DNA of 64,000 bases. It comes from Bacteroidales bacterium (GTDB taxonomy: Bacteria; Bacteroidota; Bacteroidia; Bacteroidales; Salinivirgaceae). Below are positions 15,358 to 53,222 of this stretch, piece by piece. Both the position numbers and the translations under genes were made by a program. Under the pieces are notes generated by a model. That model saw nothing but the letters and a program-made list of their open reading frames with translations. It ran no database searches and was not told the origin of the DNA. Each line of letters starts with the position of its first letter. Position 1 is the stretch's first letter. Where the stretch lies: the NCBI GenBank assembly GCA_012519055.1, contig JAAYQU010000037.1, forward strand, positions 1 to 64,000, given 5' to 3'.

Positions 15358-15483
15358 TTATAACTGCCAAAACCTACTTACCGAATTAATATTTCACTAA
15401 AAAACAGCAACTTAGATGACAAAGTAGCATAAAAGTAAAACAAGCACGGTATTTGCATGCTATATTTTACATATCTTGAATTA

Positions 15484-16272
15484 ATGAAAATACAGAGAGA
15501 AAACTTATACGAAAAATTGCGTTTGATTTTATCTGAAGGAGATCAAAGGGTTAATATTTTGCAGGAATCTGTTGATGTCCTACAGCAGATGTCGTATTAT
15601 AAATTAACAAGAAAGGCGAAGAAAAACATTAAGCAAGATGTTGATTATCTGTCAGATGTGGCGCAACTTTACGATCCTGAGGTGGATTTATCAAGAAAGA
15701 AACTGCTTTTATGTACTCTTGCTTCTATAGATGATCCCAAATACTTCAGGGCTATCGAAACATTTAAAGAAAATGCACCAGAAGAGTTGAAAGATTGGAC
15801 AACTTTAGCTCTTCAAGAGAGTAAAATGTTGTTAGAGTCATCGCTATTAGATACTAAACAGCTGTATATCAGTACAGGACTTGGAGGCAAAGGCGAATCT
15901 TTGCGATTTTTTGCTGCTATTATAAACAAAACTGGCACTCCTTTCGATAGTGCGCAACGCGAAATCATCGAGAAAGAGTTTGACTTTCAGTTCAGACAGC
16001 AAAATGGCGAAATTGAAGAGATTGAGTTCAATGATAAGTATGCTCAAATAATGTGTCTTTTACCTTTAGAACTCAACGTCGGAGATGTCGTAAAAGGAGC
16101 TGTCAAAGAGTGCAATACATACGGCGGATTTATTGAAGATAACTTTTTGCTTACAAACGTTAAAAAGTTAAATACAGAGGAAATCAATCAATTACTTGAA
16201 AATCCGAAAATGGACGATGAAGAAGATGATGACGAGCTGTATATGGATGACTTTGATTTGGAAGAAGAATAG
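15484..16272 (+). CDS. Conserved hypothetical protein with acidic tail
   Basis: A 262-residue cytoplasmic protein I do not recognise by name. The first two thirds are mostly helical and charged, with no membrane segment. The middle has STGLGGKGESLRFFAAIINKTG, followed by an alpha/beta-looking region, and the last 20 residues are almost all Asp/Glu (MDDEEDDDELYMDDFDLEEE). It looks like a conserved Bacteroidota protein rather than a random frame, since codon use is uniform and no other frame competes. An ATG at 15457 would add nine hydrophobic residues (MLYFTYLEL); I prefer 15484 because a TATTTGC promoter-like stretch lies at 15450-15456. Confidence 0.65.
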   Translation: MKIQRENLYEKLRLILSEGDQRVNILQESVDVLQQMSYYKLTRKAKKNIKQDVDYLSDVAQLYDPEVDLSRKKLLLCTLASIDDPKYFRAIETFKENAPEELKDWTTLALQESKMLLESSLLDTKQLYISTGLGGKGESLRFFAAIINKTGTPFDSAQREIIEKEFDFQFRQQNGEIEEIEFNDKYAQIMCLLPLELNVGDVVKGAVKECNTYGGFIEDNFLLTNVKKLNTEEINQLLENPKMDDEEDDDELYMDDFDLEEE

Positions 16273-17906: not shown

Positions 17907-18770
17907 TCAACTATCTTTGCTACTGTCTTGGTTTGTATTCAGGTTCTTTTTATTTAACAGAACTCCTTGTTTAGCACTTAACGAAGAGATTGCTTTTTCG
18001 CCTGTTTTTGCTTCCAATTCAAGACGTGCATTGCGCGCTATTTCCCCACCCTGACGCGCTACATTGCTGTGTTCTTCCATTGTTTCTGGATTTGAGGTTT
18101 CTGATATACGTGTAGTTGACAATTCTGCTAACATATTCAAAACCAACTCGGTATTTGTCATATTATCTCGCAAATTTTCCTTTTTCAACCCCTTGAATTT
18201 CTTATACTCCTTAGCGGTTTTGCCAGCCCATGTCTTGTAGATAATATCGGTTAGGGAAGCAAACTGAACGCCCTCTTGCAACCCACGTTTCTTCCATTCA
18301 TCGGTAAGATCTTTTCGTATTTCAATACTTTTCAAGCGTTGATTTATCCAATTGTCAGAATAACCCAAACGTTTATAATCTTTCATTGCTTGATCTATCG
18401 ACAATTCAGGATCTTGCAGCTGATCCAAGCGTTCGCGGGCTACTTGCGCAATCCACAGCTTAAACGGCTCAGCTTTAGGAGATGGTATAGACTGAATTAA
18501 TCGAAAAAGTTGCTCTGTATCAGCTACATCTGTTAATCTCATTTTGCCATCTGCAGCACGCATTTTCAAACCGTGACAATTCGTCACGGTTTCATTGCCC
18601 TCTTCTTTTAAACGTTGCTTTAGTTTTCGCCAATAGGCGGTAGGATCTACGCTATCCGTGAGTATAGCAACGGTATCTACAATAGAAAAATACCATTTTT
18701 CCTGCTCCTCGTCCCAAACGGTGCGAACCCTTTTCTCCTCAAACAGTTGTACAGCTTCTCGCTGTGTCAT
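17907..18770 (-). CDS. Bro-N / DinD-like antirepressor-family protein
   Basis: A 287-residue protein with an N-terminal Bro-N domain (about 10-110), typical of phage antirepressors: EEKRVRTVWDEEQEKWYFSIVDTVAILTDS, AYWRKLKQRL and LTDVADTEQLFRLIQSIPSPKAEPF. The C-terminal part (KKRGLQEGVQFASLTDIIYKTW, then GGEIARNARLELEAKTGEK) matches the DNA-damage-inducible DinD type. DinD in E. coli is a LexA-regulated inhibitor of RecA filaments; whether that holds here is unknown. It is an orphan: no phage structural or integrase gene is near. A likely horizontally acquired gene between a protease and a cytochrome. Confidence 0.82.
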   Translation of the reverse strand: MTQREAVQLFEEKRVRTVWDEEQEKWYFSIVDTVAILTDSVDPTAYWRKLKQRLKEEGNETVTNCHGLKMRAADGKMRLTDVADTEQLFRLIQSIPSPKAEPFKLWIAQVARERLDQLQDPELSIDQAMKDYKRLGYSDNWINQRLKSIEIRKDLTDEWKKRGLQEGVQFASLTDIIYKTWAGKTAKEYKKFKGLKKENLRDNMTNTELVLNMLAELSTTRISETSNPETMEEHSNVARQGGEIARNARLELEAKTGEKAISSLSAKQGVLLNKKNLNTNQDSSKDS

Positions 18771-18813: not shown

Positions 18814-21417
18814 TTACTTCGCCTCAGCCGGCGTTTTCAAAAACTTTACAAATCTTTTCCAAAAACGAATCACTTTTTTCCGCTCAATAATTCCCCAAAC
18901 TATTAGCCCTGCTAATACTATAAGTGCCACAACGCCAACTGCTTTAATCCACGCAATCATAAGATTATTGCTGTGCAATAGCTTAGTATGCTGTTCAGGT
19001 GTGGCAAAAGATAATTTCGCTATTTCTGCAATCTTTGTCAACATCCGATTAGGAATAGTGCCTTTTGGAATATCTATATGACATGCTACACAAGAATTTT
19101 TGCGAGTCAATAAATCACGCTGCGATTGTGTTAGCGGTATAGAGGTAGGCCAGTGAGTATCAATAGTTTGTACTTGCTGTCCGTCGGGGGTTAGCAATCG
19201 CATAAAATCTCCGTGTAACTCGCTTATGGCGGCTATTTGTACCTGTGTATATTTACTCACATTATTTCCCTCAGCGTCAACTACATCGGCATAACGAGGT
19301 GTGCCCGGCGTTGCGTCATAAATTCCTCCATCAATGCCGTATCCTGCTGCAACAGGGTTTCCATGACAATCGACACACTCTCTTGATTTTAAAGAAGTTG
19401 TATGTGGATTGAGTGGAGCCAATTCTATAGCGTCGTAACCCTCTTTCGTTTTGGCTACATGGTTCCACACAACGGTTTCACCATCTTTGTCAATCACCGT
19501 GCTAACTGTTTGAATTACACCAACTAATGGAGAAACTCTTCCCTCGCCGTTGACACCAAGCGGGGCGTTCTCCCAACGGATATGGCTGTAGTCACCATAA
19601 GTAGGTGCGCCCGGCTGCATTGCAAACTTCTGATGATAATCGGCTGTTGTTCCGTCCTTTCCGTAGAGTTGTGGCGAGCGTAACCAGTCTGTAGATGATT
19701 TGGAGTAGTCAATCACGTATCTATACCCGTAATATTGTGGCATCCATGTAGCATGACAAGCATAGCACTCCAATTTTTCAATGTGTTTGGTGCTAACCAT
19801 TGCTACTTTGGCATCTATCGGATTTTTCCAACTCTTTTTCTTAGCTATCTCTTTTAGCGTGATAAGTTCAAACTCATTGTTGCTTCCGTCAGAGTGCACA
19901 ATAACGCGGTCGCCACGCCTTACTACGTTGCCTAACGGATTTCCTCGCGCCGATAGCAAATAGCCGTCCTCTTTTGGATAAGTGATACCAAACTCTTGGG
20001 TAACCTTAAGTGGCTCATCGGCTACTCCTCGGGCTTGCTTCATATCTAATGTTTTATCAAACTCGTCGCCGTAGCCCAATGGAAGTTCCCATGGATAGTG
20101 AGTGGGCGTTCCGTGACAGTCGGCGCACTCAATCTCTATCGCACCCAAAGAGGCAACATCAATATTTCCATTACCATGTATGCCTATGGTTGTATGGCAA
20201 TCCTGACACAGAAGTCCGTTAACCATTTTGCCATCTTTTTCTATTTTTCGGTGAACGTCTCCCTGCATATATTTAAAAACATAACCTGCATTGGGCTTTT
20301 GCGGTAACCCTTTTTCATCGAAAGGACCTTTATTATAAGAGGATTCCAATGGCATAAACCCTTGGTAAGAGTGACCAATTCTGCGTCCGCCGGCATGGCA
20401 AGCGGCACATGTAGAGACTTGTACACCACTTAATTTTTGGTCGTTAAAGTTTATACTCGACTTTCTTGTTCCTTGCATGGCGTGTACCATCAAGTGTCCG
20501 GGTCTGTTTTTGGGGATTTCGGGGTCACCACCCTCATAATAGCCCTCATTGCTGTAAACACTGTGACAAGCTGCACAACCCATTCCCCGATAATGTCCTC
20601 TGCCCTGATTTCCTTTATTGCTCAAGTGACAAGCATTACAGTTGCGCAGGTAGGTAAATGCTGCAAGCTCTGGGTTTGTCTTTATATCTTCGGCAGAAAC
20701 AGTGGGAATCTCTTTTAGTTCAGATGGGAACTGTCCTGGGAAAGTAGCTGCCATCTCTTTCATGTAATCAATGTATTGTTGAGTCCCAAAACGGGGTGTT
20801 GCTCCGTCAGTATCAACAAGTGTACTGTTGGCATAAACATGGTCGTAATTTTCGGTGCCAATGCCGAAGCTCCATGCAATTGCTTTCATCTTGCCTGCAT
20901 CGCTGTTCATCATTGATAGTCGAACATTATAGACATGATCCTCATGACACTGTCCACAAGTATTTTCATTTACTTGTAGTGCTGCAGGAACAGGCGTAAA
21001 CGCAGCCAGCAAACTTCCTTTAGGAACTCCGCTGTGTGCCCTGTCTTTATTGTGCAATTCAGATGGTGTGCCTCCATGACAAACAACGCAACCGTTGGGA
21101 TCGCCAAGCGATGCGCCTTTTTCTAATATCTGCTGCATCATCTTCGAGCCGATGGGACGTGCAGGTTCTATCCCCTGATGACAGGCGAGACAGTACTTGT
21201 CTTCGGCAGGAAACGGCTTTTCTGCTACAATTTGCGAAATATCAGGGTGTACATAGTGCTCTGACAAGTCCTGTGTTGATTGTCCACTATCTGCACGTGA
21301 CTCGCCGATAAGATTGGCATAATAAGCTAATATCCAGCCTACTACAAATAGAACAAAAACCATTAATAGCAGGCTGCTTATTTTTCTTTTTCGTGTGTTC
21401 TTATTTTGTTTCGACAT
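18814..21417 (-). CDS. Membrane-anchored 11-haem c-type cytochrome
   Basis: An 867-residue multihaem cytochrome c. Eleven CXXCH haem-binding motifs are visible, beginning at residues 76, 110, 154, 260, 281, 337, 404, 431, 551, 681 and 776. Residues about 13-34 form an N-terminal membrane anchor and about 818-842 (MIAWIKAVGVVALIVLAGLIVW) a C-terminal one, so the haem domain should sit on the periplasmic face tethered at both ends. No CXXCK active-site motif as in NrfA is seen. Function is probably electron transfer to or reduction of an external acceptor; the substrate is not identifiable. It is divergent from an OprO/P-like porin and a haem-lyase gene, suggesting one respiratory module. It does not match a family I know exactly. 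Confidence 0.85.
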   Translation of the reverse strand: MSKQNKNTRKRKISSLLLMVFVLFVVGWILAYYANLIGESRADSGQSTQDLSEHYVHPDISQIVAEKPFPAEDKYCLACHQGIEPARPIGSKMMQQILEKGASLGDPNGCVVCHGGTPSELHNKDRAHSGVPKGSLLAAFTPVPAALQVNENTCGQCHEDHVYNVRLSMMNSDAGKMKAIAWSFGIGTENYDHVYANSTLVDTDGATPRFGTQQYIDYMKEMAATFPGQFPSELKEIPTVSAEDIKTNPELAAFTYLRNCNACHLSNKGNQGRGHYRGMGCAACHSVYSNEGYYEGGDPEIPKNRPGHLMVHAMQGTRKSSINFNDQKLSGVQVSTCAACHAGGRRIGHSYQGFMPLESSYNKGPFDEKGLPQKPNAGYVFKYMQGDVHRKIEKDGKMVNGLLCQDCHTTIGIHGNGNIDVASLGAIEIECADCHGTPTHYPWELPLGYGDEFDKTLDMKQARGVADEPLKVTQEFGITYPKEDGYLLSARGNPLGNVVRRGDRVIVHSDGSNNEFELITLKEIAKKKSWKNPIDAKVAMVSTKHIEKLECYACHATWMPQYYGYRYVIDYSKSSTDWLRSPQLYGKDGTTADYHQKFAMQPGAPTYGDYSHIRWENAPLGVNGEGRVSPLVGVIQTVSTVIDKDGETVVWNHVAKTKEGYDAIELAPLNPHTTSLKSRECVDCHGNPVAAGYGIDGGIYDATPGTPRYADVVDAEGNNVSKYTQVQIAAISELHGDFMRLLTPDGQQVQTIDTHWPTSIPLTQSQRDLLTRKNSCVACHIDIPKGTIPNRMLTKIAEIAKLSFATPEQHTKLLHSNNLMIAWIKAVGVVALIVLAGLIVWGIIERKKVIRFWKRFVKFLKTPAEAK

Positions 21418-21549
21418 AATGCATTCTTTTAATATATTTGTGCAATATCACTATTTTTTTTCAAATAAACATTTAAAACTTATTAATAAATCTTAATAAG
21501 ATTATCCACAATAAATTCGTCTAAAAAGCGAAACTAAAATTAAAACATT
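21418..21549. promoter_or_regulatory. Divergent control region between cytochrome and porin genes
   Basis: The 132 bases between the two divergent starts are very AT-rich. They hold TATATTTG at 21433-21440 (plus-strand -7-like), a GTG-N6-CAC dyad next to it (about 21439-21453, reminiscent of Crp/Fnr-type sites but weak), and an inverted repeat CTTATTAA/TTAATAAG at 21479-21500. Regulation of the module from here is plausible; the individual sites are unproven. Confidence 0.4.
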
Positions 21550-22740
21550 ATGAATAGGATTTTCACATTTTTCATTGCAATCATTTCAACCACTCTTGTA
21601 GGTTATCTAAACTGCTCGTCTCTGTTGGCTCAAGCAACTGACCAAGAGACATCTATCACCGATTCTTCTGCGCAAAATACAAAGCAATCTGTGGATGCCG
21701 CACTACACCTGCGCCCCGCTTATCACGCACAATTCGCAGGGAAACCCATGGGGTTTGACGATGGCTCATTCCGTTTCGACCACGTAATGATTGACTTTGC
21801 AGGACAAATTGTCCCAAAACTCTCTTACAAATACCTACAACGATTAAATAAGGTTTCACCGATTTTTTCAAAAGAAAACTTGCCTTCCTCGATCGATTAC
21901 GCCTATTTAAAATATGCGTTTAACGAACAATTTTATATGATCGCCGGAAAACAAGCCCTTTCCATTGGAGGTTTCGAATACTACAAATATCCTGTAGAAG
22001 TTTATGATTACAGCGGTATAATAAATAGTGTAACGTGTTATCTTACTGGTGCACAGATAGCGTACGCCCCTACAAAGAGTCAAGAGCTGACCTTTCAGGT
22101 TCTCAACAACCGTATGGGTACTTGGGAAGAAGCTGTAGGAAGACCACAGGTAGGCTTACAGATTGAGGCACCCACCGTGCCACTATACTATTCGCTTGGC
22201 TGGAATAGCAACTATTTCAACAACGCTCTGCAACTTCGTTATGCTGTAAACTACACTTCACCTGCAAAAAACAAAACACTATTTATGGTAAGCGGAGGAC
22301 AAAAGTTTCAATCAGGTCCTTTTAGCATCTATATTGATGCTTTCTACCAACGCTCCGAAATTGACTATCTTGGCGAAATTAGAAAACTGACTGCTGATCC
22401 GATAAATATTGCAGAGTATGTTGACTATCTTTCGGTGCTTGGCGAAGTAAATTACAGATTTCATTCCAAATGGAATATTCTTTTGAAATGTTTTTACAAC
22501 GATTTTTCTACTTATAAATCAAGTGGTTATTTAGACAAAGGCAGTTGTCTGACTTCGCTGAATTATCAAGCTGGTATTGAGTACTATCCTTTAGAAGATG
22601 ACAATTTGCACTTCTTTTTCACCTCAACATTTAAACAATATAGCGAATCAAAAATGGTACAAATAACCACGCCTGCCGATGAACTCAGACTCTCGGTTGG
22701 CTTAGTTTATCGAGTTCCTGTTCTTTCGCTAAAGCGTTGA
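21550..22740 (+). CDS. Outer-membrane porin, OprO/OprP-like
   Basis: A 396-residue exported beta-barrel protein. A signal peptide (about 1-27, ending SLLAQA) is followed by a run of amphipathic strands with frequent aromatic girdle residues. MIDFAGQIVPKLSYKYLQRLN and LKYAFNEQFYMIAGKQALSIGGFEYY resemble the phosphate-selective porin O/P family, and the C-terminus ends LRLSVGLVYRVPVLSLKR, typical of barrels with alternating residues. The specific solute cannot be inferred. It lies 31 bases before the haem-lyase gene and is divergent from the 11-haem cytochrome, so it may admit the electron acceptor used by that cytochrome. Confidence 0.78.
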   Translation: MNRIFTFFIAIISTTLVGYLNCSSLLAQATDQETSITDSSAQNTKQSVDAALHLRPAYHAQFAGKPMGFDDGSFRFDHVMIDFAGQIVPKLSYKYLQRLNKVSPIFSKENLPSSIDYAYLKYAFNEQFYMIAGKQALSIGGFEYYKYPVEVYDYSGIINSVTCYLTGAQIAYAPTKSQELTFQVLNNRMGTWEEAVGRPQVGLQIEAPTVPLYYSLGWNSNYFNNALQLRYAVNYTSPAKNKTLFMVSGGQKFQSGPFSIYIDAFYQRSEIDYLGEIRKLTADPINIAEYVDYLSVLGEVNYRFHSKWNILLKCFYNDFSTYKSSGYLDKGSCLTSLNYQAGIEYYPLEDDNLHFFFTSTFKQYSESKMVQITTPADELRLSVGLVYRVPVLSLKR

Positions 22741-22771
22741 TTTAGTATATACGTAACGAAAAACGTTATTT

Positions 22772-25174
22772 ATGGAAAAAACTAAACGCTACCTTTCGTC
22801 ATACAAAACAACAATAGTCTTGCTACTGACTTACGCGGCAGCAATGGCTATTGCTACTTTTGTCGAAAAAGATTACGGAACAGAAATGGCAAAAAAGTGG
22901 GTCTACTACTCTCCCGCTTTTTTCCTCTTGCAGTTTTTGTTAGTGCTAAATTTTATTTTTGCATGGAGAAGATATGGCTACTTAAAGCAGAAGCGTTGGG
23001 CTCTTTTAACCGTGCATCTGGCTTTTGTTGTGATTTTGGGAGGTGCACTAACAACGCATCTTTTTGGGAAAGAGGGCACTGTACATATTCGCGAGGGAAG
23101 TAAAACCGACGAAATGATTGTCCGCACAGGCGACAAGCTTAGCATTGAGAAGTTGCCGTTTGTGTTGGAACTGACCGATTTTCGCCTAAATCGCTATCCC
23201 GGTTCGGCAAGTCCTTCATCATACGAAAGCGACTTGTTAGTACATGTTGACGGCAAAACACAAGAGGCAAAAGTATTTATGAATAACGTTTTAGACGTGA
23301 AAGGATTCCGATTTTTTCAAGCCTCGTATGACCAAGATGAGCTTGGAACAATTCTATCTGTAAACAAAGATGTGGCAGGCAGAACTATAACTTACATAGG
23401 TTACCTTTTGCTTTTCTGTGGATTTTTACTCGGCTTTATAACGAAAAACTCTCGTTTTCGACAGTTAAGCCACCGGCTTAAAAGTTTACGAGAGGATAGT
23501 AAATATCTTATAATCACTTTATTATTCTTGCTGGTTGGAGCAACCGCCATACAAGCACAATCCACAGAGAACGTGCAAAATGTTACAATTCCACAGGAAC
23601 ATGCCGCTCAGTTTGCTGCATTACCCGTGCAATCGGGTGGTAGAATTATGCCACTGCACACACTTTCATCAGAAATAGTGAGAAAAGTTTACAAGGAGCA
23701 AAAAATGGCACAATTTAGCCCCGAACAGTTTTTGCTAAGCTTCCTTGCAATGCCACGAGTGTGGATTAATGAACCATTTATCGCAATAGATAATAGCGAA
23801 ATCTCATCGCTCTACGGGTTACCCAAAGATTATGCCTCTTATGTTCAGTTTTTCGATGAAAATGGTAATTATAAGTTGCTTAATCAGATGCAAAAGATTT
23901 ACGGGAAGTCTCCTGCTGAACGTTCAGCAACCGATAAGGACATGATGAAATTAGATGAGAGAGTCAACATTGTCTTTCAGCTATTGGACTACAGTCTGTT
24001 ACGAATTTTTCCCGACCCAAACGATGAGACACACACTTGGTATTCGCCAAACGTTAATCCGTCTATTTTTCCAAAAGAGGATTCTCTGTTTATTGCTTAC
24101 TCTTTCAAACAGTATCTTGTTGAAGTTAACAACTCGCTACGAAGCGGAGAGTGGAGCAAGCCCGAACAGTTACTTACCGAACTGAAAGAGTTTCAATTGA
24201 AAAACGACATCGGAAAGCATATTGACGATGGAAAGATAAAAGCAGAAATCAGCTACAATAAACTGCGAGTTTTCGACCGGTGTAAGTTGTCATATTTTAT
24301 TTTAGGTGGTTTACTACTTGTTTTTGCCTTTATGCAGTTGCTTAAAAAGCGAAAATGGGAGAATATCGGCATTAAAATTTTGACTATCGCTATCTGGTGC
24401 ATTTTCTTATTTCACGCTTTCGGCATGGGAATGCGTTGGTATATAGGCGGTTATGCTCCGTGGAGCAACTCCTACGAGACAATGGTGTATGTAGCTTGGG
24501 CAACTGTTTTGGCAGGAATTATCTTTGGCAGAAAAAGTGCCATTACAATGGCGTTAGCAACGCTTTTCGGCGGGATAATTCTGTTTGTTTCAGGATTAAA
24601 CTGGATGGATCCAGAAATCGGGACGTTGGTACCTGTGCTTAAATCGCCTTGGCTGATGTTTCACGTGGCAGCTTACGGTTTCTTTGGTATTGGCTTTTTA
24701 TTGGGAATTGCTAACCTTTCTTTGATTGCTTTTGCAAAAAAGAGCGAGTTAATTCGCTTCAGAATAAAGGAGTTGAGCATTACAAACAATATGGCTCTGC
24801 TTGTGGGGCTTGCACTGATGACTATCGGCACGTTTCTCGGAGCCATCTGGGCAAATGAGTCGTGGGGACGTTACTGGGGCTGGGACCCTAAAGAAACCTG
24901 GGCACTTATAACGGTGGTTGTTTACACCATTGTAACGCATATTCACTTAACTAAAAAACGAGATAATATTTGGATTTTTAACCTATTATCTGTACTTGCA
25001 TTCGCCTCGGTTTTAATGACTTTCTTTGGGGTCAACTACTTGCTGAGCGGCATGCACTCCTACGGAGTAACGGAAGGAGTCTCTGCTGTATTTATCTATA
25101 TTGTCCTTGCTTTTGTGGCTTTAGGCGTGTTGGGTGTTATTTCTTATCAGAAGAAATATTTGAATCAAAGGTAG
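22772..25174 (+). CDS. ccsBA: CcsBA-type cytochrome c haem lyase (ResB-CcsA fusion)
   Basis: An 800-residue membrane protein combining the two halves of system II cytochrome c synthesis. The ResB/CcsB-like half (about 1-230) has membrane segments including TTIVLLLTYAAAMAIATFVE and a periplasmic part. A second hydrophobic segment near 245-265 leads to a long periplasmic domain (about 265-505), and the CcsA half (about 506-800) contains the haem-handling WWD motif at about 695-710 (ESWGRYWGWDPKETW). System II attaches haem to CXXCH motifs outside the membrane, so this protein is the obvious partner for the adjacent 11-haem cytochrome. Its stop codon lies inside a 28-base perfect palindrome. Confidence 0.93.
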   Translation: MEKTKRYLSSYKTTIVLLLTYAAAMAIATFVEKDYGTEMAKKWVYYSPAFFLLQFLLVLNFIFAWRRYGYLKQKRWALLTVHLAFVVILGGALTTHLFGKEGTVHIREGSKTDEMIVRTGDKLSIEKLPFVLELTDFRLNRYPGSASPSSYESDLLVHVDGKTQEAKVFMNNVLDVKGFRFFQASYDQDELGTILSVNKDVAGRTITYIGYLLLFCGFLLGFITKNSRFRQLSHRLKSLREDSKYLIITLLFLLVGATAIQAQSTENVQNVTIPQEHAAQFAALPVQSGGRIMPLHTLSSEIVRKVYKEQKMAQFSPEQFLLSFLAMPRVWINEPFIAIDNSEISSLYGLPKDYASYVQFFDENGNYKLLNQMQKIYGKSPAERSATDKDMMKLDERVNIVFQLLDYSLLRIFPDPNDETHTWYSPNVNPSIFPKEDSLFIAYSFKQYLVEVNNSLRSGEWSKPEQLLTELKEFQLKNDIGKHIDDGKIKAEISYNKLRVFDRCKLSYFILGGLLLVFAFMQLLKKRKWENIGIKILTIAIWCIFLFHAFGMGMRWYIGGYAPWSNSYETMVYVAWATVLAGIIFGRKSAITMALATLFGGIILFVSGLNWMDPEIGTLVPVLKSPWLMFHVAAYGFFGIGFLLGIANLSLIAFAKKSELIRFRIKELSITNNMALLVGLALMTIGTFLGAIWANESWGRYWGWDPKETWALITVVVYTIVTHIHLTKKRDNIWIFNLLSVLAFASVLMTFFGVNYLLSGMHSYGVTEGVSAVFIYIVLAFVALGVLGVISYQKKYLNQR

Positions 25175-25263: not shown

Positions 25264-25929
25264 TTATTTAGCACCGCCAACAACAATTACTATTTCGCCT
25301 CTGGGAGCATTTTCAGAAAAATATTCGATAAGTTCAGACAATGTTCCCCGTTTTATCTCCTCGTGCAGCTTGCTTATTTCGCGGCATACAGCAGCTTTTC
25401 TATCTTCTCCAAATGCCTCCTTAAATAGTTCCAAACTTTTAACAAGGCGGTTGGGCGATTCGTAAAAAATCATAGTACGCTGTTCACTCTTAAGCATCTC
25501 TACTAATTTGTTTCTACCTTTTTTTTGAGGTAAAAACCCTTCAAATACAAACTTATCGCAGGGCAGTCCACTACTTACAACAGCTGGAATCATTGCAGTT
25601 GCACCGGGTAGGGTAACTACCTGAATATCATTGCTAATTGCTTCTCGTACCAACAAAAAACCCGGGTCGCTAATTCCGGGTGTTCCTGCATCGGAAATCA
25701 AAGCTAATGTTTCACCTTGCAACATCTTATCAATCAATGATGTTACTATTTTATGCTCATTAAACTTATGAAAAGATATCAAAGGTTTTGATATTGAGTA
25801 GTGTTTCAACAATATCCCACTCGTTCGAGTATCTTCAGCAACAACAGCATCAACTTCTTTAAGAATTCTAATTGCTCTTAAAGTAATATCTTCCAAATTA
25901 CCTATCGGTGTGGGAACAACGTAAAGCAT
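25264..25929 (-). CDS. rsmI: 16S rRNA (cytidine-1402-2'-O)-methyltransferase
   Basis: SAM-dependent methyltransferase modifying C1402 in the decoding centre of 16S rRNA. The 221-residue protein has the tetrapyrrole-methylase fold: VVPTPIGNLEDITLRAI (residues 4-20), VVAEDTRTSGILL, ALISDAGTPGISDPGFLLV and LPGATAMIPAVVSSGLP. Slightly short compared with about 225-290 in other phyla, as usual for Bacteroidota. It lies 3 bases behind the upstream hypothetical gene, so they share a transcript from the promoter at 26850-26881. Confidence 0.95.
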   Translation of the reverse strand: MLYVVPTPIGNLEDITLRAIRILKEVDAVVAEDTRTSGILLKHYSISKPLISFHKFNEHKIVTSLIDKMLQGETLALISDAGTPGISDPGFLLVREAISNDIQVVTLPGATAMIPAVVSSGLPCDKFVFEGFLPQKKGRNKLVEMLKSEQRTMIFYESPNRLVKSLELFKEAFGEDRKAAVCREISKLHEEIKRGTLSELIEYFSENAPRGEIVIVVGGAK

Positions 25930-42740: not shown

Positions 42741-43526
42741 CTACCCCCTCCTCTTAACAAACTCCTGAGCAATAAACGACGCCACATCATCAGCATAGGT
42801 GTTCATGCCGAAACCTGCATCGTAGCCAAGCTCTTTGGCTAACTCGTGCGAAATGCGTGGACCTCCGCAACAGAGTATTACCTTGCTTCGTAAGCCTTCG
42901 GCTTCTAACATCTCTACTAACTCTACCATATTATGTATATGCACATCTTTTTGTGTAACCGTTTGAGATACTAATAGTGCATCGGCTTTTAGCTCAATTG
43001 CTTTAGCAATAAACTCCTCGTTTGCTACCTGACTTCCTAAGTTATGCGCTTCAAAACCCTCGTAACGCTCTAATCCGAAATGTCCGGCGTAGCCTTTCAT
43101 GTTCATAATGGCGTCAATACCAACTGTGTGCGCATCGGTGCCTGTGCTTGCTCCAATTACTATAAGTTTACGACCGATGTTCTCTTTTATATATTGGTCT
43201 GTTTCAGCCATATCCCATGTTGTTGACTCAACCTTAGGGACGTGTATTGAAGTATAATCAACCGTGTGCACGCATTTGCCATAACAGTTGAAGAAAGTAT
43301 ATCCTGGGGTTAGCTCCTTGTAGAATACCACTTGTGGCTCGTCGAAACCCATTTTTTTCATTAAAAGTTTTGCTGCCTCAATAGCCTCGTTACCGGCAGG
43401 AACGGGCAAAGTAAAGCTAAGTTGCGTTTTGCCGTCGTTCATGGTATCGCCATAAGGCTTTATGTTTTTAAGATCAAGCGTAGTGTCAAACGTACGCTCC
43501 TCCATTGAATATAAACCTCCGCTCAT
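42741..43526 (-). CDS. kamE: Lysine 5,6-aminomutase beta subunit
   Basis: Cobalamin- and PLP-binding subunit of lysine 5,6-aminomutase, which moves the terminal amino group of beta-lysine from C6 to C5 to give 3,5-diaminohexanoate. In the 261-residue protein the B12 motif DxHxxG is Asp131-Ala-His133-Thr-Val-Gly136, and Lys144 follows. These match the numbering of the cobalt ligand His133 and the PLP lysine Lys144 known for the clostridial enzyme, so the active site is intact. It follows kamD by 22 bases and is the last gene of the operon, before a terminator. Confidence 0.95.
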   Translation of the reverse strand: MSGGLYSMEERTFDTTLDLKNIKPYGDTMNDGKTQLSFTLPVPAGNEAIEAAKLLMKKMGFDEPQVVFYKELTPGYTFFNCYGKCVHTVDYTSIHVPKVESTTWDMAETDQYIKENIGRKLIVIGASTGTDAHTVGIDAIMNMKGYAGHFGLERYEGFEAHNLGSQVANEEFIAKAIELKADALLVSQTVTQKDVHIHNMVELVEMLEAEGLRSKVILCCGGPRISHELAKELGYDAGFGMNTYADDVASFIAQEFVKRRG

Positions 43527-43548
43527 TTTTGTTCAGATTTTATATGAT

Positions 43549-45105
43549 TTATTTTCTATTCTTCATTAATTCAATAAACGGGTTGCTATAGTTTGCACCT
43601 CGTTCTACAACTCCATCAAGTCCTTTACCACCTGTACGCGGGCGTTTTACAGCACCAAACTTACCTTGCTCCAAAGCATTAAACAAACCTTCTGTTTCCA
43701 GCACCTCTAAAAGTTTGATAGCATTTTCGAGTACCTCTTTTGCTCTATTGCGGATTATACCGCCCTCTTTAAACTCAACCTCGCTACCAAGATCTTTCAT
43801 ATTGTTGAAAATATATTTGGCGTTCTCAATAGCAAGATATCTGTCCGACATAAACGGTGTATGAACAGCCTCGGTAAGCATTCCCAAAAGCTGTATCCCT
43901 TGACCTGTCCAGATTGATATTTGATTGAAAAGAGCGTTCTGTACGTGCCCTAAGAAAATATTACCTGTCATAAACTTTGTTGGTGGCATATATTTAAGTG
44001 GTGCTTTCGGGAAAATCTCGCGAGTCATCTGCGCCTGCGCCAGTTCGTAAAGAAAACCGTTTTCAAGTTTCGGATCCATCTCAAAGGCGTGTCCAAGCCC
44101 CATTTGCTCCTCGGGCAATGCTGCTGAAAGTGCCAGCTGTTCGTTAATTAGGTCGGATGCGAGCACCGTGTGTGCCTCATCGTAGGCGTCAGCAGTGGTA
44201 AGATAGTTGTCCTCGCCTGTATTGATAATAACTCCGGCGTATCCGTTAATAATCCTCGAAAAATACTGGTCAACAAGCGTACGCTGCATATTGATATCGC
44301 GGAAGAGGATACCATAAAGAGCGTCGTTAAGCATAACGTCAAGACCCTCTAAGGCTCCCATTGCTGCTATCTCAGGCATACAAAGACCTGAACAATAGTT
44401 ACATAGGCGAATATATCTACCGACCTCTTCACCAACCTCGTCTAAAGCTTTACGCATAATGCGGAAGTTCTCCTGAGTTGCATAAGTTCCGCCGAAACCC
44501 TCGGTTGTAGCGCCGTAGGGCACATAGTCCAACAAACTTTGCCCTGTTGTTCGGATAACTGCAATAATATCAGCACCTTGACGTGCGGCGGCTTGCGCTT
44601 GAACAACGTCTTCGTAGATATTTCCGGTGGCTACGATAACATATAAGTATGGTCGCGCTCCTTCGCCAATTGTTTCCAAATAGTGTTCGCGCCGTGCTTT
44701 GCGTTTTTTTATACGATTGAGCGTCTCTGTAATAATTGGTTCAAGTGCCTTATTAATCTTCTCTTGGGGGTTAATTTTAAGGGTCGTCAAATCCAATTTT
44801 CCTGCGTTAACCTGCTCTGCTATTTGCTGTGGGGTCAATCCTGTTTCAATAATAGCATTCCCTATATAGAAGATAACTCCCTGTCCGAGAACACCTTTAT
44901 CTTTCAGTGAGTCGACCACGATATTTGGCAGAGGCACGGCGTTTTCGTCAATTCCGTCAATACCTAACAGTCGGCACAATGTGCGCTCAACAGCGACTGT
45001 CGTATAATTTTCCACAAAATTTTGAACATCGTCAGCAATATTTCTGGCGAGGCTCCTGGCGTACTCCACTCGTTTAAAATCGAGTCCTAATTTACTGTTC
45101 TGCAT
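43549..45105 (-). CDS. kamD: Lysine 5,6-aminomutase alpha subunit
   Basis: The 518-residue large subunit of lysine 5,6-aminomutase, a TIM-barrel protein that binds the lysine-derived substrate and pairs with KamE. Family segments include YLYVIVATGNIYEDVVQAQA and QGADIIAVIRTTGQSLLDYVPYGATTEGFGGTYATQ (about 160-215), and SGLCMPEIAAMGALEGLDVMLNDALYGI, followed by ERGANYSNPFIELM at the C-terminus. Length fits the family (about 515-520). It lies between kamC (30 bases upstream) and kamE (22 bases downstream). Confidence 0.95.
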   Translation of the reverse strand: MQNSKLGLDFKRVEYARSLARNIADDVQNFVENYTTVAVERTLCRLLGIDGIDENAVPLPNIVVDSLKDKGVLGQGVIFYIGNAIIETGLTPQQIAEQVNAGKLDLTTLKINPQEKINKALEPIITETLNRIKKRKARREHYLETIGEGARPYLYVIVATGNIYEDVVQAQAAARQGADIIAVIRTTGQSLLDYVPYGATTEGFGGTYATQENFRIMRKALDEVGEEVGRYIRLCNYCSGLCMPEIAAMGALEGLDVMLNDALYGILFRDINMQRTLVDQYFSRIINGYAGVIINTGEDNYLTTADAYDEAHTVLASDLINEQLALSAALPEEQMGLGHAFEMDPKLENGFLYELAQAQMTREIFPKAPLKYMPPTKFMTGNIFLGHVQNALFNQISIWTGQGIQLLGMLTEAVHTPFMSDRYLAIENAKYIFNNMKDLGSEVEFKEGGIIRNRAKEVLENAIKLLEVLETEGLFNALEQGKFGAVKRPRTGGKGLDGVVERGANYSNPFIELMKNRK

Positions 45106-45135
45106 ATTATATTATTATTAATCTGACTTTCTAAC

Positions 45136-46563
45136 TTATTTATTATCAATCAATCGCGCCGCTTCGGAGATTATCTCACTGTCGAAGTCAAGGATTTGAG
45201 CAATCCTAAGTGCCTCGTGCGGGACATCAGTTTCGTTATCCTCTATCAGCGAGTAGTCGATAAAATCGCCAATATTTTGTAATGTAACTTGCGATTGATC
45301 ACTATCTTCTACAAATCCTTTGACACGAAGTTTACGACACTGTGTACTCAATCCTCCATAGTGAGTTGTTATTACTGCTTTGACATTCAGCTGGTTGAAA
45401 TAGTTTGCCACTGCACTTACAATCGCTCTGCCCTCGGTTGGATTGGTTGTCCTTGCAAGCTCATCAATTAACAAAAGCAATGGGCTCTGTTTTTTAGATA
45501 TCTGTACCATTTCGTTTACGCACATCATCTCGGCGGCGTAAGAGGATAGCCCTGACAAAACGCTCTGATTATCGTGAAAGCTGTACATTATTTGGTTTAC
45601 CAACACTATCTTGGCACTCTCGGCAGGCACGAAAAAGCCGAATTGACACATCGCTTGGCTTAACCCTAAAGTTTTCAACAATACGGTTTTACCTGCCATA
45701 TTTGCTCCTGTAATCAAACACGAGCCGTTTAATAGCTCAATATCAATCGGTTGACAACGCTTGTTCTGTTTGTTTAAAGCATCTTTAAGCTCTGGGAAAA
45801 AGAGACCTTTGTATGATGTTACATCAGTAGCAATTTCAGGCTTAACAAACTTGTACTCAATCACCTGCTTTGCCTTAGCAATAAGTATATCAATATCTGC
45901 AACGGCAGCCAACGAGTCATTAAGCTGCGAGACGTGAGCAAACAACTGTTCAGAGAGTTCTGCTCTAATCTTATCCTCTAATTCAGTTATCTGGTTTCTT
46001 ATATCGTTCGACTGTTGATAAAGCTCTGAGTCGCCTCCACTTATATCTCCAAGGCTCTCCAACAAAAACTCTACTTTAATTAGCTCCTTGCGCAGTGCTC
46101 CAAGGTTTGGGTCAAAGGCATTGCTAACATAAAACGATGGTGTTCTTGACTTTTCAGGGTCAAGAATCTCTATTACAGCGTTGAGGTTGGGTATTTTGGT
46201 ATGTATAAAATCTATATCTGAAAAAAGCTCTTTGATTTCGGAAACTAAAAGCGCGAAGCTTTTTACCTCAAACAGCTCTATATCGTTGAGGGTTAAGCGT
46301 TTTTGAATGTTTTTTATAGTCCCTGCAATATCCCTAATTTGCGCAAGTTTGATTTCAGCTTTATCGAAAACGGATTTTTTATCTCCTTGCTTGTAAATAT
46401 TTATCGTTTCGTCTATCTGGTTTAACTGATAGTCAACATCTTTTGCATTAACCATAAACTTCGTTGAAAGCAAAACACGCTGCCCGAGTTTCGATTTAAT
46501 GTCGAGATTTTCAACAATATACCGAAGTCCGCTTATCTCCGAAAAAAGGTTTTTAATATTCAT
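45136..46563 (-). CDS. kamC: MutS-like ATPase, probable lysine 5,6-aminomutase reactivase subunit KamC
   Basis: A 475-residue protein with only the lever and ATPase parts of MutS. The Walker A motif is GANMAGKTVLLKTLG, with LFLPV-like VLVNQIMYSFHDNQS, the Walker B region LLLIDELARTTNPTEG and the C-terminal VITTHYGGLS. No mismatch-binding domain is present. In lysine-fermenting bacteria a MutS-like protein is encoded beside kamDE and is proposed to exchange damaged cobalamin in the aminomutase; the name kamC is based on this gene order. The ATG at 46563 is preferred to TTG at 46572. Repeat copy B lies just upstream. Confidence 0.85.
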   Translation of the reverse strand: MNIKNLFSEISGLRYIVENLDIKSKLGQRVLLSTKFMVNAKDVDYQLNQIDETINIYKQGDKKSVFDKAEIKLAQIRDIAGTIKNIQKRLTLNDIELFEVKSFALLVSEIKELFSDIDFIHTKIPNLNAVIEILDPEKSRTPSFYVSNAFDPNLGALRKELIKVEFLLESLGDISGGDSELYQQSNDIRNQITELEDKIRAELSEQLFAHVSQLNDSLAAVADIDILIAKAKQVIEYKFVKPEIATDVTSYKGLFFPELKDALNKQNKRCQPIDIELLNGSCLITGANMAGKTVLLKTLGLSQAMCQFGFFVPAESAKIVLVNQIMYSFHDNQSVLSGLSSYAAEMMCVNEMVQISKKQSPLLLLIDELARTTNPTEGRAIVSAVANYFNQLNVKAVITTHYGGLSTQCRKLRVKGFVEDSDQSQVTLQNIGDFIDYSLIEDNETDVPHEALRIAQILDFDSEIISEAARLIDNK

Positions 46564-46578
46564 TATATTCAATTATTG

Positions 46579-46731
46579 AGCAATGAACCATTAAGACATT
46601 AAGAAACATTAAGTTTGGGCTAAAGCCCAAAACTTGTGTCAACCTACCAACCAACGACTTAAAAGTCGTTGCTATTGATAAAACAATCACCCTATTAATT
46701 GTTAATTGCACATTGTTCATTGTTAATTGTC
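46579..46731. repeat. REP-like two-hairpin element, copy B
   Basis: Contains TTGGGCT-AA-AGCCCAA (46615-46630) and AACGACTT-AA-AAGTCGTT (46653-46670) separated by 22 bases, bounded by CATTAAGAAACATTAAG on the left and ATTG-type low-complexity sequence on the right. It fills the gap between the FISUMP gene and kamC and overlaps the last codons of the FISUMP gene slightly. Confidence 0.75.
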
Positions 46732-47538
46732 TCTAAGGCATCGAACAGAAAACGCATAATGCGTAGGGCAGTAATTATGAGTTACTTCACTGTCATCAAA
46801 GTACACTCCACAACCGAACGAGCACATTTCATCAAACGCCGTCGTACTCCACCAACCATTATAGTATCCAAGCATAGTAAAGTCTCCATATCCATTATAG
46901 AGACCTCCCGGAATTGCAGTAAAACCTGTCTTGTTTGTTGCTCCTGTATTTGGCTCTTCCCAATGTTCCGTTCCTGCTTCTTTAAGTGGACCTCCTGCAA
47001 CTGCCTCTCCACCAAGTAAATCGAGTAATTGTACCCACTCAGTATCGCTGGGGATATGCCAACCTGCCGGACATATACCTTGCACGCCACTGGGATTAGT
47101 ATTACTACTTGTTGCACCATTCATAACTGCTGCCCAGTTATACAGCACACCATAGGTTATGTAATTCTCTGTTGCTTTTGCAGCTGCGATATCAGTACTA
47201 TCATAACCGTAAACATAGTAACACGGTTCAGTATTTGAACTTGTATCAGGAACAACTATACTTGGTAAGTACTTTAGGTTCTCTGCCATCCAAATCTGCT
47301 CACCGATTCTCACCCATTTATATACTGTACTGTCGCGTGCATCGGTAAAAGTTCCTGTTTCTATACCTCCTACTTCGGGTCTATAAAAAATAATACTGTC
47401 AATATCGGCTACTTTGTATTCCCATATCACACTGCCATCTTTCATAATGAAAATGCTGTCGTTTTGCGCAAAAACTGTGTTTAACGACAAGCCGAAAATT
47501 GCTGTTAATAGACCAATTATTGAAATAAACTTTTTCAT
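46723..47538 (-). CDS. Exported FISUMP-domain protein inserted in the kam operon
   Basis: A 271-residue secreted protein. A signal peptide (MKKFISIIGLLTAIFGLSLNTVFA) leads to a C-terminal domain of the Fibrobacter succinogenes major paralogous family (FISUMP), with IGEQIWMAENLKYLP, GVLYNWAAVMNG, GICPAGWHIPSDTEWVQLLDLLGG, TGFTAIPGGLYNG and AFSVRCLRDN. Such domains occur in many copies in Bacteroidota and Fibrobacteres and are mostly uncharacterised surface proteins. Its position between kamB and kamC, flanked on both sides by ATTG-rich repeat sequence, suggests it was inserted into the operon; a function in lysine metabolism is unlikely. Residues 20-60 have IFIMKDGSVIWEYKVADIDSIIFY, another Bacteroidota repeat-protein lead. 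Confidence 0.85.
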   Translation of the reverse strand: MKKFISIIGLLTAIFGLSLNTVFAQNDSIFIMKDGSVIWEYKVADIDSIIFYRPEVGGIETGTFTDARDSTVYKWVRIGEQIWMAENLKYLPSIVVPDTSSNTEPCYYVYGYDSTDIAAAKATENYITYGVLYNWAAVMNGATSSNTNPSGVQGICPAGWHIPSDTEWVQLLDLLGGEAVAGGPLKEAGTEHWEEPNTGATNKTGFTAIPGGLYNGYGDFTMLGYYNGWWSTTAFDEMCSFGCGVYFDDSEVTHNYCPTHYAFSVRCLRDN

Positions 47539-47569
47539 TGTTAATTGAGTTGAAAGTTATTTTTCATTG

Positions 47570-48580
47570 CTAATTGAGATTTTTTATATCATAAACAGGC
47601 AATTGCAATGCATCTTGCAACGCCGTTCTAAGTTCGTTCGAATTTAATTTATATCCTTGTGGCGATATTGGATTGATACAAACCGCCGCAAGATTTGTTT
47701 TTTGTACAACCTTTACTGTGCCTCCTCGTGTTATAAATAAATAAAACAGATTTGGAGTTGCAAATATCTTTGTAAAATCTTTAACTATCAACTCAATATC
47801 TGACAGGTTTTTCTGCATTCGCAAAAATTCAAAAAGATTGTTACTTGCTGCTCCCGCAACGTACAGTCGATTGCCATGGACAAATATAGTCTCTTTTGAT
47901 TTTTCTAACACAAAAACCGATTTTATATTCAAATCGTGTATTTCTCCCGCATCATCAATCGCGTGAATGCCCTCGTCAATCATATCTAATTTATCTTTCA
48001 ACGGTTGCTCTACTTCGGGCAAGGCAATCAAATCAACCACATACTTTGTTTTCCTTACAAGCTTTGGAATATTTGCTGAAAGAGCTGCACCTGTAGCAAG
48101 AACCATTCCTTCAGTAACAGCCGGCGATGCCAAACTTAGACGTGATAACGCGCCATCGACAATTGTCAAATCTATCCCGTATTTATCCATTTCAGATATT
48201 AGATCTTTAAGTGTATGAGTATCAGGCGGTCCTGAAAGCAGAACTTTATCAGCTGATATTGCTCTTGCTATCACTAATCTGCCCAACGATGTGCGGATAT
48301 TGCTTACATCTAATATTTCTGAAGTGATACGTCTTTGTAAATAGTGTTTTTCGGCAGAAATGAAAATCGTGCCTTTCCCTATTTTAATTTCTGGTTTAGG
48401 TGTATTGGTAACGATATCTTTACTTTCACCATCAATGCCTATTGATGTTAAAGCAATTCTCTTTTCCGAGTCTTTCAATCTGCCCAAAATATAATTAAGA
48501 CATTCGGTTTTGCCTGTATTTTTCTCAAGCCCGACAATCGAAAGACTTTTAAAAGTTGCGATATCGTTAATAAACGGCAT
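47570..48580 (-). CDS. kamB: P-loop protein, probable lysine 5,6-aminomutase reactivase subunit KamB
   Basis: A 336-residue cytoplasmic protein. The N-terminal P-loop SIVGLEKNTGKTECLNYIL (about 13-31) is clear and is followed by KRIALTSIGIDGES; the rest is alpha/beta with KVLLSGPPDTHTLKDLI and LTIVDGALSRLS. It has no close match to named families, but a protein of this type sits between kamA and the MutS-like gene in lysine-fermentation clusters and is called KamB. It probably acts with KamC to keep KamDE loaded with intact cobalamin. Only a hairpin-containing gap separates it from kamA. Confidence 0.8.
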   Translation of the reverse strand: MPFINDIATFKSLSIVGLEKNTGKTECLNYILGRLKDSEKRIALTSIGIDGESKDIVTNTPKPEIKIGKGTIFISAEKHYLQRRITSEILDVSNIRTSLGRLVIARAISADKVLLSGPPDTHTLKDLISEMDKYGIDLTIVDGALSRLSLASPAVTEGMVLATGAALSANIPKLVRKTKYVVDLIALPEVEQPLKDKLDMIDEGIHAIDDAGEIHDLNIKSVFVLEKSKETIFVHGNRLYVAGAASNNLFEFLRMQKNLSDIELIVKDFTKIFATPNLFYLFITRGGTVKVVQKTNLAAVCINPISPQGYKLNSNELRTALQDALQLPVYDIKNLN

Positions 48581-48601
48581 ATTTATTTTATTAAAAAACG
48601 A

Positions 48602-48646
48602 AACGCATTACCCAAAAACAATTTACGATTTTGAGAGTAATGCGTT
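48602..48646 (-). terminator. Hairpin with T-run between kamA and kamB
   Basis: A 10-bp perfect stem AACGCATTAC / GTAATGCGTT with a 25-base loop. On the minus strand it lies 13 bases past the kamA stop and is followed by TCGTTTTTTAATAAAA, directly before kamB. It looks like a partial terminator that would lower expression of kamB-E relative to kamA. Confidence 0.6.
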
Positions 48647-48658
48647 CCAGTGTAAAAG

Positions 48659-49918
48659 TTATTTACTCAGACCTCTTGATTTTCGAGCTAGTTTCTCTGG
48701 TTCAATGGATATGTTGTTGCCATGCATCAAGCCTGCAACACCATCTTCTTTTGATGCTCCCTTGGTATCGTAACACTTACAAGTGCTACTATATTCTGTA
48801 GGCTCTGTGTAAGAGGCTATTACTCCCTCAAAGTTTCGGAGAACAACTTTTCCTGGCGCTTGCGAAATCAAATATTGCGGCATAACCGGAATCTTTCCTC
48901 CACCGCCCGGAGCGTCAACAACGAATGTTGGCACAGCAAAGCCCGAGGTATGACCACGCAAACTCTCAATAATCTCGATACCTTTAGAAACAGGTGTTCT
49001 AAAATGTTCTAGACCCATCGACAAGTCGCACTGATAAATATAATATGGTCTTACTCTGATTTTTACCAAATCATGGACAAGCTGTTTCATAACAGTTGTA
49101 CAATCATTCACCCCTCGCAACAGAACTGATTGATTTCCAAGTGGAACACCTGCATCTGCTAAGCGTTCACATGCCAAGGCACTTTCGGGTGTTACTTCGT
49201 TAGAGTGATTAAAGTGAGTATTTAACCAAACAGGGTGGTGTTTTTTAAGCATATTTACCAAATCCTCTGTAATACGTTGTGGCAGCACAACAGGTGTACG
49301 GGTTCCGATACGAATAATCTCGACATGCGGAATTTCTCGCAAACGTTTGATAATGTTTTCAAGTCGTTTGTCGGAAACCAACAGAGCATCTCCACCTGAG
49401 AGAAGTACGTCACGCACTTCTGGGTGTTTTGCAATATACTCTATTCCTTTATCGACATTATCCTGCGATGTCTCGGCATCTTTTTGTCCTGCAAAACGTC
49501 TGCGAGTACAGTGTCTGCAATACATTGAACACATGTCTGTTATCAAAAACAGAACTCTGTCGGGATAGCGGTGTGTTAATCCCGGAACCGGCGAGTCTTC
49601 ATCCTCATGTAATGGGTCTAACAAATCAGCCGGTGATTGATATGTTTCTTGAATAGAAGGGATTGCCTGTTTTCGCACGGGACAATTTGGATTGTCTTTA
49701 TCAATAAGCGAAAGATAGTACGGCGTGATTGCCATACGTAGGGTTTGCAATGATTTGCGAACTCCCTCCTCCTCTTCTTTTGTTAAGTTGATGTATTTTT
49801 TTAGCTCATCAAGCGTCTCGATGCGGTTGCGAACTTGCCATTTCCAATCGTTCCATTCGTTATCCGGAACATTTGGGAACAGCTCCTTACGCCTACTTTT
49901 GTTTTCTATCTTGACCAT
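48659..49918 (-). CDS. kamA: Lysine 2,3-aminomutase
   Basis: Radical-SAM, PLP-dependent enzyme converting L-lysine to L-beta-lysine, the first step of lysine fermentation. The 419-residue protein has the cluster motif CxxxCxxC at Cys130, Cys134, Cys137 ([14 protein letters not shown]). The substrate-binding Asp298 ([14 protein letters not shown]) and Asp335 and the PLP lysine Lys342 ([13 protein letters not shown]) are each five positions beyond the known clostridial residues 293, 330 and 337, so spacing is conserved. This separates it from EF-P lysine mutases, which are shorter and lack this context. Confidence 0.96.
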
Positions 49919-49947
49919 GATAAATTATTTAGTTAAAAGTTTTTATC

Positions 49948-50152
49948 AATTAACAATTAGCAATGTGTAATGAACAATAAACCATTAAGAAATTAAGAAA
50001 CATTAAGATTGGGCTAAAGCCCAAAACACGTGTGTAAACACACGAACCAACGACTTAAAAGTCGTTGCTATTGATAAATAACATCCCAATTAATTCATAA
50101 TTCGTAACTCGTAATTGCTCATTGTTAATTGTTAATTGTTGATTGTTCATTG
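49948..50152. repeat. REP-like two-hairpin element, copy C
   Basis: The most complete copy: ATTG-rich flank, CATTAAGAAATTAAGAAACATTAAG, TTGGGCT-AA-AGCCCAA (50009-50024), a CGTGTG-TAAA-CACACG hairpin, AACGACTT-AA-AAGTCGTT (50049-50066), gctattgata, then another ATTG-rich flank. It occupies the 236-base gap between kdd and kamA within the lysine operon. Confidence 0.8.
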
Positions 50153-50154
50153 AT

Positions 50155-51195: not shown

Positions 51196-51226
51196 TATAT
51201 GATATATTATTGTGTTGTTATAATCA

Positions 51227-51290
51227 AATAAAACTCACATGTTAGTTCTTTTTGTTGTGTACAAATTGAGGCTTACACGTGAGTTTTATT
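51227..51290 (-). terminator. Large hairpin between kce and kdd
   Basis: A 12-bp perfect stem AATAAAACTCAC / GTGAGTTTTATT, extendable after one mismatch, encloses a 40-base loop. On the minus strand it starts 20 bases past the kce stop. The T-run is only moderate (TTTTATTTG), so it may be an attenuator or processing site rather than a full stop. Confidence 0.45.
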
Positions 51291-51309
51291 CTGTTAAATT
51301 GTTTTTATT

Positions 51310-52137: not shown

Positions 52138-52149
52138 AATCAAATAGTT

Positions 52150-52536
52150 TTATTTACGTTGGCAATTTTTTGGTACAACACATGTACCACTTGCACGACA
52201 AACAACAATAGGTTCATCTAAAAAATCTGCTGCCGAAGCAGAAATATCTGTGCGTGGAACAATAACTTTACGCGCTTCGAATGTCATTTTCCGTGATGAG
52301 TTTCCCTCACTTGTTATCTCTCCAGTGGCTTCTATAAAATCGCCGGCATGAACAGGAGCTAAAAACTCTACCTTGTCGTATGCAACAAAAAGACCTTCAT
52401 CGCCATCGCGTCTGATTAATAGTTCGGTTGCTACATCACCAAATAGTTGTAGCATTTTTGCGCCGTCAACCAAACCTCCACCATAGTGAGCATCTTGCGA
52501 GCTCATTCTTACTCTGATAATTGCCTTGTTCTTCAT
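52150..52536 (-). CDS. kal: 3-aminobutyryl-CoA ammonia-lyase
   Basis: Hotdog-fold enzyme that removes ammonia from L-3-aminobutyryl-CoA to give crotonyl-CoA. The 128-residue protein carries the family segments [27 protein letters not shown] (split around residues 11-37) and [21 protein letters not shown], with [14 protein letters not shown] after. Size is normal for Kal. Its product is the branch point to butyryl-CoA. It sits between the CoA-transferase A subunit (8 bases upstream) and kce. Confidence 0.94.
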
Positions 52537-52544
52537 AATATATT

Positions 52545-53201: not shown

Positions 53202-53222
53202 AATAGATATTCTAAACAATTT

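Follow-up and report, generated by a model that had tools for sequence, protein, structure and literature searches.

An ExtM-like, 11-haem, doubly anchored cytochrome c encoded beside an outer-membrane porin and a CcsBA haem lyase in a member of the Bacteroidales

What might a multihaem cytochrome c do in a member of the Bacteroidales when its gene lies beside genes for an outer-membrane porin and a haem lyase, and to which family does it belong? The question is raised by a 64,000-nucleotide stretch of DNA, here called the window, which comprises positions 1-64,000 (forward strand) of contig JAAYQU010000037.1 in assembly GCA_012519055.1 of a Bacteroidales bacterium (Salinivirgaceae). A reverse-strand frame at 18814-21417 starts with ATG and encodes a cytochrome of 867 residues with CXXCH motifs at residues 76, 110, 154, 260, 281, 337, 404, 431, 551, 681, and 776, and all 22 cysteines of the protein sit inside these motifs. 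At the DNA level, the window contains 12 CXXCH-type matches versus a mean of 4.23 and a maximum of 10 in 100 shuffles, 11 of them inside the cytochrome gene, and no second multihaem frame is found in the 64 kb. Hydropathy places one hydrophobic segment at about residues 11-39 (21301-21387, reverse strand) and another at about residues 816-850 (18868-18972, reverse strand). Across a divergent intergenic region of 132 bp (21418-21549), the forward strand carries genes for a 396-residue porin (21550-22740) and, after a gap of 31 bp, an 800-residue CcsBA fusion (22772-25174). The first-pass annotation had described eleven motifs in 867 residues with a hydrophobic segment at each end, divergent from a porin and a CcsBA fusion, and the frame, the motif count, the hydropathy, and the domains of both neighbors bear this description out.

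The same annotation could match the cytochrome to no named family, which does not hold. Its most significant NCBIfam match is ExtM (NF040943; E 1.8e-50), followed by weaker matches to ExtN and ExtO. The ExtM match extends over model positions 18-127 and 129-510 of 599 and reaches 171.9 bits, compared with an equivalog cut-off of 800 bits. Pfam domains above cut-off are Cytochrome_C7, Cytochrome_C554, Cytochrom_c3_2, and the MtrC/F II-IV domain (36.5 bits, cut-off 30). Judged by sequence, the cytochrome is a distant relative of ExtM and not the founder of an unplaceable new reductase family, and it probably works like an ext-type electron-transfer or terminal cytochrome. With ExtM (GSU2935) of the Geobacter ext cluster it shares significant homology, a multihaem nature, and an OprP-like porin gene in the neighborhood. 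In contrast, Geobacter ExtM has 12 haems and the window cytochrome 11, the window cytochrome exceeds the 599-position model by 268 residues and has a C-terminal hydrophobic anchor, and the gene context differs. ExtM is encoded together with ExtI, ExtKL, ExtN, and cytochrome b and Rieske genes, whereas the five window genes scanned include no further ext gene: besides the cytochrome gene, these were the genes for Porin_O_P, CcsBA, a Bro-N protein, and an S41 peptidase, and no Ext model matches any of the four. Because its score, haem number, and gene context all depart from those of ExtM, the cytochrome is placed outside the ExtM equivalog. In a literature search on the ExtM cytochrome, the bacterial protein was treated only for Geobacter and cable bacteria, and a second search returned no paper joining phosphate-selective porin, multiheme, and Bacteroidetes.

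Better known multihaem reductases were considered as well. The absence of an NrfA-type CXXCK motif and of NrfH, stated previously, is confirmed, since no CXXCK is present in the 867-residue protein and its own genome has no match to NrfA (PF02335) or NapC/NirT (PF03264). NrfA identity is thus ruled out. So is NapC/NirT/NrfH identity, with which a comparison had been proposed, given that PF03264 is not among the Pfam matches of the cytochrome to E 1; the NrfH model gives a weak match (E 5.8e-6) in one of 16 aligned relatives (alignment A3, see below). A comparison with the octahaem reductases OTR, HAO, and MccA had also been suggested, and at the sequence level it yields no likeness: octahaem reductases are absent from the PDB matches of the single cytochrome sequence (to E 10; best E 1.2, nothing significant) and of the A3 profile (to E 1; best 0.42, nothing significant). 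MccA carries a CX15CH-type motif, and no motif with 3 to 17 residues between C and CH is found in the 867-residue cytochrome. A profile of five ExtM-like outgroup proteins (alignment A4) matches cytochrome c nitrite reductases of solved structure at E 0.0003-0.004, in short local matches only, and eight-haem nitrite reductases at E 0.16. AlphaFold2 models of the full cytochrome with six near relatives (pLDDT 29.5) and of residues 240-450 (pLDDT 32.5) are unusable. Elsewhere in the genome there is no further ExtM match; the CXXCH pattern occurs 209 times versus 146 in a reversed control, and among the 100 of these 209 matches that were listed no three fall within 2 kb of each other on the same strand (by eye). 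Among the nine near-clade genomes tested for other cytochromes (the own genome and G400-G407), NrfA is above cut-off in G403 and G405 and NapC/NirT matches occur in G403-G406, so that the absence of these proteins is no rule of the near clade.

Relatives of the cytochrome fall into three groups: an 11-haem clade, 12-haem proteins of Bacteroidales, and ExtM-like proteins from other parts of the phylum. The first, called the near clade, consists of the window protein and eight loci of public genomes (L001-L008; best segments 79-90% identical). The second includes, among others, L034 and L047-L054, which are 42-45% identical to the window cytochrome and resemble it in having hydrophobic segments at both ends. 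The third is represented by L011-L015 of other Bacteroidota, the five proteins of A4; L014 is assigned to them by alignment and not by an NCBIfam scan of its own. Alignment A1 contains seven near proteins, without L007 and L008, in whose assemblies the cytochrome gene is split over two frames by assembly error or decay. A3 contains 16 proteins (6 near, 10 twelve-haem; L005, L007, L008, L055, and L057 omitted), and the tree 21 (L007, L008, L055, L056, and L057 omitted; midpoint root only). Weak or fragmentary matches (L010, L016, L043/L058, L044) were kept out of every alignment. All 16 members of A3 match ExtM, and comparison of A3 with the five ExtM-like proteins gives E 3.2e-56 across 544 columns, so that these are homologous to the near and 12-haem proteins. 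In a sample of the order, 15 of 393 genomes match it at E <=1e-10, 13 of them with at least 620 bits, and two of these 13 fall in the close clade, namely the own genome and G513, the genome of L002. Seven of 395 genomes match in a sample of the phylum, including the own one; the other six do so more weakly (E 1e-10 to 1e-17), and the four proteins scanned from these six all have an ExtM match (E 1e-73 to 1e-78) that stays below cut-off. Within the same family, the own genome alone has a match (1/6).

The difference between 11 and 12 haems can be traced to one position. At residues 562-566 (19720-19734, reverse strand) the window protein reads YYGYR where 12-haem relatives read CYGCH, the latter in 10 of 10 twelve-haem proteins of A3, and a CXXCH is kept at this position in all five ExtM-like proteins as well. 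YYGYR or YYGYK is present in the six near proteins of A3 and also in L005. As the near clade forms one group with a support of 100/100 in the 21-protein tree (the 12-haem proteins forming a clade or a grade), and as both other groups keep the site, the most parsimonious explanation is a single loss along the long branch of the near clade; the ancestor of the 11-haem clade probably lost one haem there. Histidines outside the motifs differ between the groups too. His 89, 377, 390, 585, and 754 are conserved in the 12-haem group and missing in the near clade, which has conserved histidines of its own at 57 (a gap elsewhere), 193, 349, 440, 612, 735, and 815. Ten such histidines are common to the near and most 12-haem proteins; among these, His161 is present in 7/9 and His308 in 9/10, and the remaining eight occur in every protein compared. 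The seven proteins of A1 have 17 invariant non-motif histidines, more than their 11 haems, and therefore all 11 haems may be bis-His coordinated. One could imagine that the heme loss at 562-566 and the rearranged conserved histidines opened a substrate pocket for which the porin is the door, turning a cytochrome for electron transfer into a self-sufficient quinol-to-anion reductase that spreads horizontally among fermenting Bacteroidales as a supplementary respiration; we regard this as improbable. No sequence mark of a catalytic five-coordinate haem is found, and there are enough conserved histidines to ligate every one of the 11 haems. Two variants were seen among the 12-haem relatives. L054:3119-5620 (reverse strand) has CAACY at haem site 5 and a lysine in the position aligned to His308, which suggests that the proximal and the distal ligand of one haem changed together and hence offers a hint on ligand pairing. 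L049, L052, L053, and L054, four of the nine 12-haem relatives, have CX4CH spacing at the first haem site.

The two forward-strand neighbors belong to known families. The porin matches Porin_O_P (PF07396; E 1.6e-36), as do all eight members of alignment A2 (the window porin and seven near relatives), and thus belongs to the same family as ExtI and OprO/OprP; its profile has no match at E 0.01 among solved structures. CcsBA is an ordinary member of its family and consists, like other System II haem lyases, of fused ResB and CcsA, both over cut-off (PF05140, 78.1 bits; PF01578, 116.4 bits), and scores 158.4 bits against TIGR03144, under the cut-off of 187.6. It is the only ResB match in its own genome and therefore probably serves the 11-haem cytochrome. 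Upstream of the cytochrome, the intergenic region contains ATATTGCAC, which recurs by eye in six of seven near-clade cytochrome upstream regions and is absent in L001. On the other side, the cytochrome adjoins a reverse-strand gene (17907-18770) whose product has a Bro-N domain and matches DdrC weakly; the third-position GC of this gene is 0.368, above the window mean.

The three genes do not form a fixed block. In 7 of 8 near loci the cytochrome gene has a porin gene in its vicinity, and among the relatives such a neighbor was found in the near clade only. Between porin and cytochrome, L002 has one PHP-domain gene and L007 two; the contig of L001 ends just past a PHP gene, and its porin and CcsBA genes lie together on another contig, away from the cytochrome. 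A CcsBA gene neighbors the porin gene in the window and likewise in the L001, L002, L003, and L007 genomes. In L004-L006 porin and cytochrome are together and CcsBA is not there; in L008 a contig end cuts the neighborhood off. The genomes of L005 and L006 encode a 59-62% identical CcsBA elsewhere, near NapC/NirT-domain genes, and in the L005 genome this NapC/NirT domain is fused to a sulfatase-modifying-factor domain. A fusion of NapC/NirT with a sulfatase-modifying-factor (FGE) domain is encoded at L060:13092-14669 (reverse strand), near CcsBA, GFO/IDH/MocA, and xylose-isomerase-type genes. Hence conservation of the three-gene block, proposed as a check, does not extend across the near clade, and porin and CcsBA are unlinked in L004-L006, a finding that the first-pass annotation had itself named as one that would refute its reading. 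Of the self-contained respiratory module postulated by the first-pass annotation, the lack of NrfA and NrfH, the porin nearby in most near loci, and the sole ResB match stand, and a fixed three-gene block does not.

Beside the 12-haem relatives, which retain the twelfth haem site, neither porin nor CcsBA is recognised. BLAST at 1e-6 gives no match around 12 loci in 11 genomes, several of them ended by the contig, although a highly diverged porin might escape notice at this threshold, and a Pfam scan of 13 genes neighboring 12-haem relatives reveals neither protein; ResB matches occur somewhere in all nine tested genomes of these relatives. The porin may therefore be a later or incidental partner. 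The cytochrome might even act alone, as the 12-haem relatives seem to, with porin and CcsBA as passengers or general-purpose neighbors, and the unlinked CcsBA in L004-L006 would fit. However, the porin is kept near the cytochrome throughout the near clade with a single exception, while further neighbors differ between the window, L003, the set of L002/L007/L008, and the set of L004/L005/L006, and we consider a cytochrome acting alone to be rather unlikely.

The ends of the cytochrome bear on where it works. All 16 proteins of A3 have the C-terminal hydrophobic segment, in contrast to none of the five ExtM-like proteins of A4. Because the N-terminus and the C-terminal tail are both basic, a topology with the two ends in the cytoplasm and the haems in the periplasm is plausible, and the presence of an anchor at either end points to the inner membrane; the N-terminal segment may instead be a cleaved signal peptide. 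The proposed place in the inner membrane does not derive from Geobacter ExtM, because PMC5877670 reports that protein from the outer and cytoplasmic membranes and from the periplasm, and PMC13194489 lists it as extracellular. A predicted position in the inner membrane speaks against a relay for extracellular electron transfer, in which the cytochrome would carry electrons through the periplasm in the direction of the outer membrane, with humics, minerals, or a partner cell as their destination and the porin as part of the exit route. Such a relay would agree with the MtrC/F II-IV domain of the cytochrome, and Geobacter extIJKLM is classed with porin-cytochrome conduits in PMC13194489. Four of the eight near loci carry 'AS..' isolate names. 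These isolates presumably come from anaerobic digesters, which would suit this relay too. On the other hand, the 396-residue Porin_O_P protein is small for a conduit barrel (MtrB has 28 predicted segments according to PMC5877670) and the window has no second multihaem gene. For the window, an Mtr/Omb-type porin-cytochrome conduit is therefore rejected, and we hold the relay to be unlikely.

How the block reached this genome can be judged from its relatives of the same genus. No cytochrome match is found in two same-genus genomes (96% and 92% complete). In one of them, G395, orthologues of genes 15457-16272 and 25264-25929 keep their order with only a sensor-kinase/LytTR pair between them; in G396, where one border was compared, the orthologue of the 221-residue protein likewise has a gene of similar size alongside (959 aa). 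The 221-residue protein encoded by 25264-25929, which we take to be RsmI, is 77% and 72% identical to its counterparts in the same-genus genomes, whereas the cytochrome is 86% identical to L002 of G513, a genome of another family. The three block genes have a third-position GC of 0.365-0.424 versus a window mean of 0.312 (sd 0.053; 45 frames), but composition alone is weak because several other window genes reach the same values. Together, the absence in same-genus genomes, the content of the site in G395, the identities, and the GC favor horizontal gain. The cytochrome block was thus probably acquired by horizontal transfer; loss of the cytochrome in the two same-genus relatives is less likely.

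Our preferred explanation, adopted tentatively and held at somewhat below an even chance, is that the protein is an ExtM-derived, inner-membrane, quinol-fed cytochrome whose electrons go to a small soluble acceptor that the porin lets in. It would drain the quinone pool, directly or through a partner, and electrons would run along a mostly bis-histidine haem chain to the acceptor in the periplasm. The porin would admit this acceptor through the outer membrane, and CcsBA would attach the haems. No quinol-oxidising subunit is seen in the three-gene block. Quinol-derived electrons are pointed to by natural fusions of a cytochrome b domain with an ExtM-like multihaem cytochrome (L011:151-2937, forward strand; L014:610-3339, reverse strand), by the cytochrome b and Rieske genes that, according to PMC2825233, belong to the Geobacter ExtM cluster, and by L001, in which the next two same-strand genes after the cytochrome encode ETF:quinone oxidoreductase and ETF, an arrangement found in one of the eight near loci. 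By analogy, a small soluble acceptor entering by the porin is our best guess, as PMC5877670 reports that the OprP-like ExtI of Geobacter is needed for normal reduction of selenite and tellurite, not of Fe(III) citrate or fumarate. The homology to ExtM and the OprP-type porin neighbor, as in Geobacter, could be taken further, to a detoxifying or dissimilatory reductase of chalcogen oxyanions (selenite and tellurite), the job proposed for the ext cluster. Yet this mutant phenotype, as described there, belongs to ExtI and not ExtM, no ExtI-named NCBIfam model matches any of the eight porins to E 1 (the library may hold none), and of the five window genes scanned the cytochrome alone matches Ext models; such a specific function therefore seems very improbable.

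A general electron sink with a supposed soluble acceptor suits what else the window encodes. At 42741-56345 (reverse strand) lies a gene set for lysine fermentation, with lysine 5,6-aminomutase alpha and B12-binding subunits, KamB reactivase, lysine 2,3-aminomutase, Kdd, Kce, thiolase, and CoA-transferase subunit B. The host is probably fermentative, and given this pathway it would use the cytochrome as an accessory electron sink, brought in with a block that was itself probably gained horizontally. The relationship to ExtM now extends into the Bacteroidales, and the clean loss of one site offers a natural comparison between an 11- and a 12-haem chain. For a fermentative cell, horizontal gain of a cytochrome together with a porin, and in many cases a haem lyase too, would offer a compact way to acquire an electron sink.
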